Positions 44,242 through 46,709 of a stretch of 64,000 nucleotides of DNA are shown here, in pieces. The translations under genes and the position numbers were made by a program. How positions within the stretch are numbered: the first letter of the stretch is position 1; each line of letters begins with the position of its first letter. The notes beneath the pieces are model-generated. The model was not told the origin of the DNA. It saw only the letters and a list, made by a program, of their open reading frames with translations, and did no database searches. Source of the stretch: Natronobacterium haloterrestre (GTDB lineage: Archaea > Halobacteriota > Halobacteria > Halobacteriales > Natrialbaceae); NCBI RefSeq assembly GCF_900112205.1, contig NZ_FOKW01000003.1, forward strand, positions 248,001 to 312,000, in the 5' to 3' direction.

Positions 44242-44254
44242 CACAATAATTGTG
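44242..44254. promoter_or_regulatory. Palindrome CACAATAATTGTG upstream of the lipoyl-E3 gene
   Basis: A perfect odd palindrome (six-base arms, one-base centre) that ends nine bases before the TATA box at 44264-44271. This is the usual place for a regulator of archaeal transcription. Confidence 0.5.
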
Positions 44255-44263
44255 CATCAAAGA

Positions 44264-44271
44264 CAATATTA
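44264..44271 (+). promoter_or_regulatory. TATA box of the lipoyl-E3 gene
   Basis: CAATATTA lies 25-32 bases before the ATG at 44296, implying a leaderless transcript. Confidence 0.6.
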
Positions 44272-44295
44272 ACCACAACTACCAACCGTCGAACG

Positions 44296-46170
44296 ATGAC
44301 CTACGAGTTCGAGGTCCCCGAACTGGGAGACGACGTCGCTTTCGGACTGCTGGTGAATTACAACGTCGAAGTCGGAGACGAGGTCGAGGAGGGGGAACTC
44401 CTCGCCGAAGTAGAGACGGACAAGTCGGTGATCGAAGTGACTGCGCCCGTCTCGGGAACCGTCCGCGAGCGCGTCGCCGACGGCGGAGAGACCGTCCGGG
44501 TCGGCGAACCGTTGCTCCGATTCGAAGACGTCGACGAACCGGGAAGCGACGGGGGGAGCGAAGACGACGATCTGACGCCCGCAGTTACCCGACTCGAGGC
44601 CGACGGCGAGTCCGGCGACGAGTCGATGCCGGCCGACGACGCGGACGACAGTGTGACCCCCGCAGTCACACGGGTCTCGGACATCGGCTCCGACACAGGC
44701 TCCGACACAGGCTCCGACTCCGACTCCGAGGACGGAACGGAGATCGACCTCGCGCCCGACCTGACCGTCGACGCCGTGCCAGAAGAGACGGAAGTCCTCG
44801 TCGTCGGCGGCGGCCCCGGTGGCTACGTCGCGGCGATCCGCGGCGCACAACTCGGGCTCGAGGTCACGCTCGTCGAGCGCGACGCCTACGGAGGAACCTG
44901 TCTCAACAGCGGTTGCATTCCGTCGAAGGCCCTCATCCACGGCGCGAACGTCGTCGAGGAGGCGACGAGCGCCGAACACCTCGGTATCACCGCCGAGGTC
45001 GACGTCGACGCTGCGGAGTTGGCCTCCTGGAAGAATGGCGTCGTCGACGATCTCACCGGAGGCGTCGAACAACTCCTTCGTGGCGCCGGCGTGACGCTCG
45101 TCGAGGGGCGGGCGGAGTTCGTCGACGACCACCGGGCCCGAATCGCGACCGAGGAAGGCGACGCATCCCTGGCGTTCGAGTACGCGATCGTCGCCACCGG
45201 CAGTCGCCCCCTCGAGGTGCCCGGGTTCGAGCCCGACGGGGAACGCGTGCTGGACTCCAGTGACGCGCTCGACCTCGAGTCGATCCCGGAGCGGCTGGTC
45301 GTCGTCGGCGCGGGCTACATCGGGATGGAACTGTCGACGGTCTTCGCGAAGCTCGGGACCGACGTCACCGTCGTCGAGATGTTCGACGACGTGCTTCCGA
45401 TGTACGGGGAGGCCGTCTCGCGCGTCGTTCGCGAACGCGCCCGCGAACTGGGGGTCGAATTCCGGTTCGGCGAGCGCGCGGCCGACTGGGAGCCGACCGG
45501 CGACGGCGTCGAGCTCACGACGGAGGCCGAGGACGGCTCGACCGCCCGCCTCGAGGCCGACGCGGTGCTCGTCGTGGCCGGTCGCGAACCCGTCACCGAC
45601 ACGGCGAACGTCGAGGCGCTGGGACTCGAACCCGACGACGACGGGTTCCTGTCGACCGACGCCCAGGGCCGAACGACTCGAGATCACGTCTTCGCCGTCG
45701 GCGACGTCGCTGGCGAGCCGATGCTGGCACACAAGGCGAGCTACGAGGGAGAGATCGCAGCGGCCGCCATCGCCGGCGAACCCGCCGTGCTCGACCGCGA
45801 TGCGATGCCCGCCGCAGTGTTTACGGACCCCGAAGTCGCGACCGTCGGTCTGACCCGCGAGGAGGCCACAGAGGCGGGCTACGATCCCGTCGTCGGAAAG
45901 ATGCCCCTCCGTGCGAACGGCCGGGCGCTCACCGTCGAGGCGACCGACGGCTTCGTCCAGGTCGTCGTCGATACACCCTCGGAACGACTCCTCGGTGCAC
46001 AACTGGTCGCGCCGAACGCCTCCGAACTGATCGGCGAGGTCGCGCTCGCGATCGACGTCGGCCTCGAGGCTTCGACGGTCGCCGAGACGGTCCATACCCA
46101 TCCGACGCTCTCCGAGGCAGTCATGGAGGCCGCGGCCGACGCTCTCGGCGAGGCGGTTCACACGCGATGA
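44296..46170 (+). CDS. Lipoyl-domain-fused dihydrolipoyl dehydrogenase (E3)
   Basis: A 624-residue fusion. Residues 1-80 are a biotinyl/lipoyl domain with the lipoylation site Lys43 in VETDKSVIEV. Residues 80-160 are an acidic linker with two TPAVTR motifs and a Gly-Ser-Asp-Thr repeat. The rest is a complete FAD-dependent dihydrolipoyl dehydrogenase: VVGGGPGGYVAAIRGAQLG, the redox pair Cys202/Cys207 in GGTCLNSGCIPSK, NAD motif VVGAGYIGMELS, VFAVGDVAG, and the C-terminal HTHPTLSE. So the enzyme can oxidise its own lipoyl arm. There are no E1/E2 genes beside it; an OsmC-family gene follows. Confidence 0.92.
   Translation: MTYEFEVPELGDDVAFGLLVNYNVEVGDEVEEGELLAEVETDKSVIEVTAPVSGTVRERVADGGETVRVGEPLLRFEDVDEPGSDGGSEDDDLTPAVTRLEADGESGDESMPADDADDSVTPAVTRVSDIGSDTGSDTGSDSDSEDGTEIDLAPDLTVDAVPEETEVLVVGGGPGGYVAAIRGAQLGLEVTLVERDAYGGTCLNSGCIPSKALIHGANVVEEATSAEHLGITAEVDVDAAELASWKNGVVDDLTGGVEQLLRGAGVTLVEGRAEFVDDHRARIATEEGDASLAFEYAIVATGSRPLEVPGFEPDGERVLDSSDALDLESIPERLVVVGAGYIGMELSTVFAKLGTDVTVVEMFDDVLPMYGEAVSRVVRERARELGVEFRFGERAADWEPTGDGVELTTEAEDGSTARLEADAVLVVAGREPVTDTANVEALGLEPDDDGFLSTDAQGRTTRDHVFAVGDVAGEPMLAHKASYEGEIAAAAIAGEPAVLDRDAMPAAVFTDPEVATVGLTREEATEAGYDPVVGKMPLRANGRALTVEATDGFVQVVVDTPSERLLGAQLVAPNASELIGEVALAIDVGLEASTVAETVHTHPTLSEAVMEAAADALGEAVHTR
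44686..44718. repeat. 12-mer tandem repeat in the E3 linker
   Basis: GGCTCCGACACA twice plus a partial third copy encode Gly-Ser-Asp-Thr units in the linker between the lipoyl and FAD domains. Copy number changes would alter linker length in frame. Confidence 0.8.
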
Positions 46171-46283
46171 CGACACTCGAGGGCTGATACGGTAATCTAT
46201 TCGACGGAGGCAATCGGCCAGTTTTCATCCCGTTACCCCCGTATTCGACCCCGCTATTTACGGATCGGCGAGACACAAGGTAT

Positions 46284-46291
46284 TTCATAAA
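46284..46291 (+). promoter_or_regulatory. TATA box of the OsmC-family gene
   Basis: TTCATAAA lies 26-33 bases before the ATG at 46317, so the OsmC gene has its own leaderless promoter in addition to any read-through from the E3 gene. Confidence 0.6.
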
Positions 46292-46316
46292 ACTGTGTTA
46301 ACTAAGCAATACTAAT

Positions 46317-46709
46317 ATGACAGACATCGACCTCACGACGACCAACGAGGACGGGTTCGATACGAAAAGCGTCATCGGCGACTTCGCCGTCGCCGTCGAT
46401 CCAATGAACGAAACCGGACCGAACCCCAACGAGGTACTCGTCGCCGACTACGCGTCGTGTTTCCTCCCTGCGGTTCGGATGGGCGCCCAAAAGAACGGCC
46501 TCGAGGACCCCGGGAAGATGGAGATCGATGCCGAGGCCGACCTCGACGACCACGACAATCTCGAGTCGATCCGGTTCACACTGAAAGTCGAAGCCGATCT
46601 CGACGACCCCGAAGAACTCGTCGAGATCGGCGAACAGTATTGTCACGTCCACACAGCGCTACGTGACGGACTCCACGCCGACGTGACGGTCGTCGACGAC
46701 GCGTTCTGA
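46317..46709 (+). CDS. OsmC/Ohr-family protein
   Basis: A 130-residue OsmC-fold protein. The peroxidatic-type cysteine is Cys48 in VADYASCFLPAV and the second is Cys109 in EQYCHVHTAL, the two-cysteine layout of peroxidase-active OsmC/Ohr proteins. NETGPNPNEVL precedes the first. These enzymes reduce organic hydroperoxides and in bacteria take electrons from lipoylated proteins plus dihydrolipoyl dehydrogenase. The fused lipoyl-E3 gene lies 146 bases upstream, which makes a functional pair plausible. Confidence 0.85.
   Translation: MTDIDLTTTNEDGFDTKSVIGDFAVAVDPMNETGPNPNEVLVADYASCFLPAVRMGAQKNGLEDPGKMEIDAEADLDDHDNLESIRFTLKVEADLDDPEELVEIGEQYCHVHTALRDGLHADVTVVDDAF

Follow-up and report, generated by a model that had tools for sequence, protein, structure and literature searches.

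A lipoyl-dihydrolipoyl dehydrogenase fusion encoded beside an OsmC-family protein in haloarchaea: a candidate lipoate-based dithiol relay

In all 15 fusions of a lipoyl domain to dihydrolipoyl dehydrogenase (E3) that were found in haloarchaea, spread over three families, the next gene downstream on the same strand encodes an OsmC-family protein. The best explanation of this pairing is probably an electron relay that runs from NADH to FAD, to the E3 pair Cys202/Cys207, to a lipoyl group on Lys43 and finally to Cys48/Cys109 of OsmC. The fusion and OsmC would form the core of a mobile haloarchaeal cassette, acting as a self-contained, lipoate-based dithiol relay.

The lipoyl-E3 fusion

The window, i.e., the whole stretch of 64,000 nucleotides analyzed here, is located on contig C20 of a 4.5 Mb haloarchaeal genome. 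The fusion gene has the following features.

44242..44272, + strand: promoter-like region of the fusion, from sequence, with the palindrome CACAAT-A-ATTGTG (44242-44254) and a TATA-like CAATATTAA (44264-44272)
44296..46170, + strand: lipoyl-E3 fusion of 624 aa, open frame; PF00364, PF07992, PF02852 and TIGR01350 above cut-off
44305..44520, + strand: lipoyl domain, residues 4-75; PF00364 (Biotin_lipoyl) 66.1 bits, cut-off 22.1; model pLDDT 83-91
44422..44424, + strand: codon of Lys43, the predicted lipoylation site (V-E-T-D-K-S); invariant in a 9-row alignment and found in the order-level fusions
44536..44766, + strand: flexible acidic linker, residues 81-157 (77 residues); pLDDT <50 throughout
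44575..44592, + strand: linker motif, copy 1, TPAVTR, residues 94-99; core AV[ST][RHQ]
44656..44673, + strand: linker motif, copy 2, TPAVTR, residues 121-126; core AV[ST][RHQ]
44788..46161, + strand: dihydrolipoyl dehydrogenase domain, residues 165-622; TIGR01350 514.7 bits, cut-off 408.8
44899..44916, + strand: E3 redox disulfide Cys202/Cys207, GGTCLNSGC, GGTCLNSGCIPSK; invariant

A sequence-only reading of this DNA had proposed that one protein combines a lipoyl domain with a full dihydrolipoyl dehydrogenase, and both profiles (PF00364 and TIGR01350) bear this out; the positions that it gave for Lys43 (in VETDKS) and for Cys202/Cys207 (in GGTCLNSGC) are also correct. Assignment to E3 is based on the full-length equivalog profile, the CxxxxC disulfide and the C-terminal His-Glu pair (H602-P-T-L-S-E607, with H602 and E607 invariant), and the best PDB match of this domain is 1ebd (E 1.7e-126). 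The lipoyl domain combines a profile score above cut-off with the lysine in its turn (Lys43, ETDKS). Since ligase genes accompany 14 of the 15 fusions, lipoylation of Lys43 is very likely, and we hold this prediction with high confidence.

The same reading stated that no E1 or E2 genes lie nearby. This is true of the whole window, where tblastn with this genome's own E1 and E2 as queries detected none, the single E2 match being the lipoyl domain itself. A complete E1-E1-E2-E3 set is present elsewhere in the genome, on contig C13.

Fusion linkers are 70-95 residues long and otherwise poorly conserved, and that of the window fusion is disordered in the model. A TPAV[T/S]R-like motif is nevertheless present in every one of them (15/15), in one to four copies by the strict core pattern; in the L054 linker the second copy reads TPVVTR. 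The core AV[ST][RHQ] occurs 34 times in the 15 linkers against 0.09 expected from shuffles of the same linkers, a contrast drawn from related, not independent, sequences. It occurs in both halves of the tree with differing copy numbers. The motif was absent from the linkers of the E2 proteins checked; with the linker modeled as disordered, its resemblance to the peripheral-subunit-binding domain was rejected as a sign of origin. That it serves as a docking element is a guess.

The OsmC protein and its relationship to Ohr

The neighboring gene has the following features.

46274..46316, + strand: OsmC promoter-like stretch; similar CACAAG...CAATA(C) upstream of OsmC in related loci, fusion-less ones included
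46317..46709, + strand: small OsmC-family protein of 130 aa; PF02566 56.1 bits, cut-off 27.5; model pLDDT 94.4, OsmC/Ohr fold
46458..46460, + strand: Cys48, predicted reactive cysteine; invariant in 41 sequences
46641..46643, + strand: Cys109, predicted resolving cysteine; invariant in 41 sequences

This protein had been described as a two-cysteine protein of the OsmC/Ohr type. It does contain exactly two cysteines, 48 and 109, which are in register with both Ohr cysteines in the alignment, and profile (PF02566 over cut-off) and fold place it in the OsmC superfamily. The "Ohr-type" label, for its part, is not supported. The catalytic Arg of the N-terminal loop of Ohr has no counterpart, as all 15 cassette OsmC proteins lack an Arg ahead of Cys48; where Ohr has its catalytic Glu, ten positions before the reactive Cys, they have Asn or Val. 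Ohr models score far under their cut-offs (TIGR03561 gives 35.6 bits for the window OsmC, below 88.85), and by fold the protein is nearest to OsmC relatives of the YhfA type. The model matches 1ml8 (YhfA) with Z 14.3, 2onf (Thermoplasma) with 14.0 and Ohr with ~12; the nearest folds (1ml8, 2pn2, and 2onf, Z ~14) are ranked so closely that this is weak evidence, and the residues are the stronger.

Xylella Ohr loses all but a residual dihydrolipoamide-dependent activity on R19A or E51A substitution (PMC5962072). A similarly sized protein from Francisella, described as a hydroperoxide-resistance protein, showed no activity as a thiol peroxidase (PMC4069020). Given the absent Arg and Glu, a less rapid peroxidase and an enzyme acting on some other thiol oxidant are about equally likely. 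By family membership, an organic hydroperoxide is the default guess for the substrate, and it is possible, though somewhat doubtful, that peroxide is the main one.

The two genes, both on the + strand, are separated by 146 bp. The region upstream of the fusion is a putative promoter, and a similar CAATATTA box precedes most other fusions; the stretch upstream of OsmC is likewise a promoter candidate. As OsmC has its own conserved promoter-like stretch, the fusion and OsmC need not share one transcript. Half-sites of the CACAAT/ATTGTG type are found 5' of both genes (44242-44254; 46274-46316), with similar elements in relatives, and a regulator common to both is possible.

Conservation and history of the cassette

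The full fusion is present in nine of 125 genomes of the family (Natrialbaceae), including those of Natrinema and Natribaculum. An order-level search with OsmC added six cassettes: one belongs to Halohasta salina and the other five to a single genus, apparently Halapricum, of a different family. The adjacency is therefore not peculiar to this strain, and its presence in 15 of 15 cases rules out chance; in L104 an opposite-strand gene lies between the fusion and OsmC.

Downstream of OsmC, 14 of the 15 cassettes encode LplB (89 aa) and then LplA (248 aa), which are missing beside the window copy. Cassette LplA matches PF21948 with 154 bits; LplB reaches 53.4 bits (E 2e-14) with NF053749, under the cut-off of 65. 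The two genes in relatives thus have the composition of the two-part lipoate ligase LplAB, a catalytic LplA with a small LplB subunit. On the Natribaculum luteum plasmid, the NCBI annotation agrees with this gene order and reads lpdA, OsmC family protein, universal stress protein (opposite strand), hypothetical protein, and lipoate A/B ligase. The annotated lpdA start there (L175:6001-7845) is an internal codon, which drops the lipoyl domain, and the frame is open from an upstream ATG.

The window fusion and the 14 others form one clade with 100/100 support against stand-alone E3s, a topology indicating that the fusion arose once. Pairwise distances of E3, OsmC, and LplA correlate (r 0.93-0.94), and the wider flanks differ between genera. 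A single fusion clade together with correlated distances indicates that the cassette moved and diverged as a unit, with OsmC differences of up to ~32%. The earlier claim of a complete reductase in two genes goes too far: the pairing of the fusion with OsmC is conserved, but related cassettes comprise at least four genes and OsmC can persist without the fusion.

A TDT/SLAC1-family transporter gene is divergent from the cassette in L048, L049, L099-L103, L106, and L107, and is kept where OsmC alone remains; in the window, an ACR3/SBF-type transporter occupies this position. A metalloid or sulfite role was considered on account of these adjoining TDT and ACR3/SBF-like transporters; the neighbors vary.

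Lipoate supply and carriers without E2

Among Natrialbaceae carriers, those with a cassette ligase possess three genes of the LplA/LipM type, of which the cassette gene scores highest; in the window genome, where the cassette has no ligase, there are two. LplB-LplA would lipoylate the fusion in other carriers; in the window genome, a ligase encoded elsewhere would have to do so. Four of the five Halapricum-like genomes (all ~99% complete) yielded no ligase besides that of the cassette. These four lack E2; their clear lipoyl proteins are the fusion and GcvH only (one genome has an extra weak biotin/lipoyl hit), and the fusion is their only E3 over the curated cut-off. Without E2, the fusion cannot be a 2-oxoacid dehydrogenase subunit in these organisms, where it may serve glycine cleavage as L-protein. 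E2 does exist in the window genome, but its absence from four carriers means that a 2-oxoacid dehydrogenase role is not the shared role of the fusion family. A subunit of a nearby complex was rejected on the same ground and for want of E1 and E2 in the window.

In Mycobacterium, AhpD-type proteins pass electrons from lipoyl proteins, so the AhpD-family gene that follows lplA in all five Halapricum-like cassettes (PF02627; TIGR00778 over cut-off) fits a redox role. The AhpD/CMD-family protein encoded directly after lplA at L099:10843-11181, and at the same place in L100-L103, contains CxxCxxxH. Upstream, the five cassettes have genes for a protein disulfide oxidoreductase and a TDT-type transporter.

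A separate link between lipoyl domains and OsmC

On contig C21 of the same genome, a single protein of 623 aa (G000:C21:194296-196164; L062:9297-11168) has the domain order lipoyl-PSBD-PSBD-E2-OsmC, in which the PSBDs are two E3-binding domains and OsmC is C-terminal. Its gene adjoins those of E1-alpha, E1-beta, and AcoX, and no E3 was detected within the 19.5 kb taken around this AcoX cluster. Full-length lipoyl-E2-OsmC proteins are encoded in at least 34 of the 125 family genomes when only single alignments are counted, and split alignments indicate several more. Their OsmC belongs to a different OsmC branch (~36% identical), which indicates that lipoyl and OsmC were joined at least twice. 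The case for a lipoyl-OsmC link is strong. No paper on an E2-OsmC fusion was found in the literature searched, subscription papers being outside its scope.

Seven deletion derivatives of this locus (L155:3863-4615, L156:4630-5379, L157, L158, L159, L160, and L162) encode proteins of ~250 aa in which a lipoyl-like domain without its lysine is joined to an intact OsmC with both cysteines; E1 and the E2 core have disappeared from these seven genomes' loci. Being deletion products without the lipoyl lysine, they were rejected as proof of a lipoyl-OsmC enzyme, and they are evidence against a strict lipoyl dependence of OsmC. In some AcoX clusters, E2-like proteins (L057:12734-14047, L058:11054-12412, L059, L060, and L161:12781-14256) have HxxxDG replaced, and their catalytic domain looks degraded.

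Cassette OsmC also occurs alone. In G015, the fusion has decayed to a 104-aa remnant beside an intact OsmC (84% identical), and in G075, G100, and G108 the fusion is missing and OsmC present; of these loci, those of G075 and G100 retain the upstream transporter but not lplBA. These four OsmC genes are under purifying selection (dN/dS ~0.1-0.2) and keep the same promoter-like stretch. Related core OsmC proteins are found in most haloarchaea, without lipoyl neighbors in the loci read. The persistence of OsmC after loss of the fusion, together with the cysteines kept by the lysine-less derivatives, implies that OsmC is able to use other donors.

Proposed relay and competing explanations

In the proposed relay, NADH would reduce FAD and then the Cys202-Cys207 disulfide of E3. 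Working in reverse, E3 would reduce the lipoyl group on Lys43 of its own flexible N-terminal domain or of that of its dimer partner. Up to this point the relay would be standard E3 chemistry in the reverse direction. The dihydrolipoyl arm would then reduce the Cys48-Cys109 disulfide that OsmC acquires on removing an oxidant. This last transfer, which we consider probable, draws on the genomic links and on precedent, as a chain from NADH through Lpd and a lipoyl protein to Ohr has been published (PMC5962072; PMC4069020). Neighboring genes point to relatedness of function, not to contact, and the contact of the lipoyl arm with OsmC is, like the direction of electron flow, presumed.

The fusion could instead be an ordinary metabolic E3, either the glycine-cleavage L-protein or a spare 2-oxoacid dehydrogenase E3, with an extra lipoyl domain as in Neisseria and with OsmC as a passenger. 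Bacterial lipoyl-E3 proteins are known (5u25, 1ojt, 1bhy), the E3 part scores over the equivalog cut-off, and in the four Halapricum-like genomes that have GcvH and the fusion as their only E3, a glycine-cleavage role is probable. However, the Natrialbaceae carriers checked have a second E3 over cut-off, which makes the fusion extra there; a passenger would not stay adjacent in 15 of 15 cases while the flanks change; and the E2-OsmC fusions would be left unexplained. We regard this account as unlikely. Much less probable still is a role of the fusion as E3 supplier to the AcoX-type complex of C21, in which E2 has a fused OsmC and for which no E3 lies in the 19.5 kb around the cluster. The closest stand-alone E3s (60-63% identical) do sit in AcoX clusters of other genomes, but the fusion carriers G062 and G066 have no full-length E2-OsmC, many E2-OsmC genomes have no fusion, four carriers have no E2 at all, and the C13 E3 could serve the complex.

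The survival of OsmC after loss of the fusion in four genomes, its own promoter-like stretch at every locus, and the related core OsmC of most haloarchaea, with no lipoyl neighbors in the loci read, would all fit a general thiol protein that works independently of the fusion, with thioredoxin, free thiols, or another lipoyl protein as donor, in a cassette of similarly controlled stress genes. This too seems improbable: no fusion was found without OsmC (15/15), and OsmC has separately been joined to lipoyl proteins by fusion. The relay from the fusion to OsmC is the reading that we prefer.

Comparison with known systems

The Ohr, Lpd, and lipoylated E2 of Xylella (Cussiol 2010; PMC5962072) resemble the haloarchaeal pair in the OsmC/Ohr fold, the two cysteines in register, and the use of E3 with a lipoyl partner. 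In contrast to Xylella, the lipoyl domain and E3 here share a polypeptide, its gene lies next to that of OsmC, relatives add a ligase, and the Ohr Arg and Glu are missing. In sulfur oxidation, the GcvH-like LbpA, part of sHdr, has its own ligase, sLpl(AB) (PMC10332631, PMC6067878), and is similarly a lipoyl protein outside 2-oxoacid metabolism with a dedicated ligase. A sulfur-oxidation reading was nevertheless set aside: the lipoyl domain, here on E3, is of the E2 type, and the cassettes showed no sHdr genes.

By its logic, the closest parallel appears to be the OsmC of Trichomonas hydrogenosomes, which, in work attributed to Nyvltova 2016 (cited in PMC10332631), reportedly acts with H- and L-protein. 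There too, E3, a lipoyl carrier, and OsmC would occur without a complete complex; however, they are separate glycine-system proteins of a eukaryote and, going by the title, are neither fused nor clustered. The N-terminal lipoyl domain fused to E3 has a counterpart in Neisseria (P64k 1bhy/1ojt; 5u25), where the protein is a pyruvate dehydrogenase component; it is not known to have an OsmC or ligase partner. Mycobacteria are said to use lipoyl and E3 as a peroxidase reductase in the AhpC-AhpD-Lpd-DlaT chain (attributed to Bryk 2002), which is similar in this respect and in the AhpD-like gene of Halapricum-like cassettes. No AhpC was seen in the cassette, unlike the mycobacterial chain, and OsmC stands where that chain has its last carrier.

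Both the components and the principle are already known from Ohr/Lpd, from Trichomonas OsmC with H- and L-protein, and from mycobacterial AhpD/Lpd/DlaT. The three-part E3/lipoyl/OsmC chain, proposed at the outset as a new arrangement, is not new in every respect, given the reported Trichomonas case. The literature searched offered nothing on point for haloarchaeal OsmC, lipoyl-E3, or OsmC-E2 fusions, and it yielded no description of the one-polypeptide donor with its own ligase, the Arg/Glu-less OsmC, the repeated linker motif, or E2-OsmC fusions.

Implications

A broader proposal, which we put forward as tentative and rather unlikely to hold in full, assigns haloarchaeal lipoate a dedicated role as redox carrier, separate from central metabolism. 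An NADH:lipoyl reductase made as one polypeptide, and served by a ligase of its own, would feed a distinct class of OsmC whose lack of the Ohr catalytic pair entails a different chemistry, the repeated TPAV[T/S]R of the linker would be a new docking element, and some lineages would have kept the system after losing every 2-oxoacid dehydrogenase complex. The fusion and OsmC offer a clean two-protein test of the lipoyl reduction of OsmC proteins, and with the lipoyl-E2-OsmC fusions that question can be put directly to a 2-oxoacid dehydrogenase complex. A working relay would be the simplest known lipoyl-dependent reductase, and it would place archaeal lipoate in thiol defence, apart from carbon metabolism.
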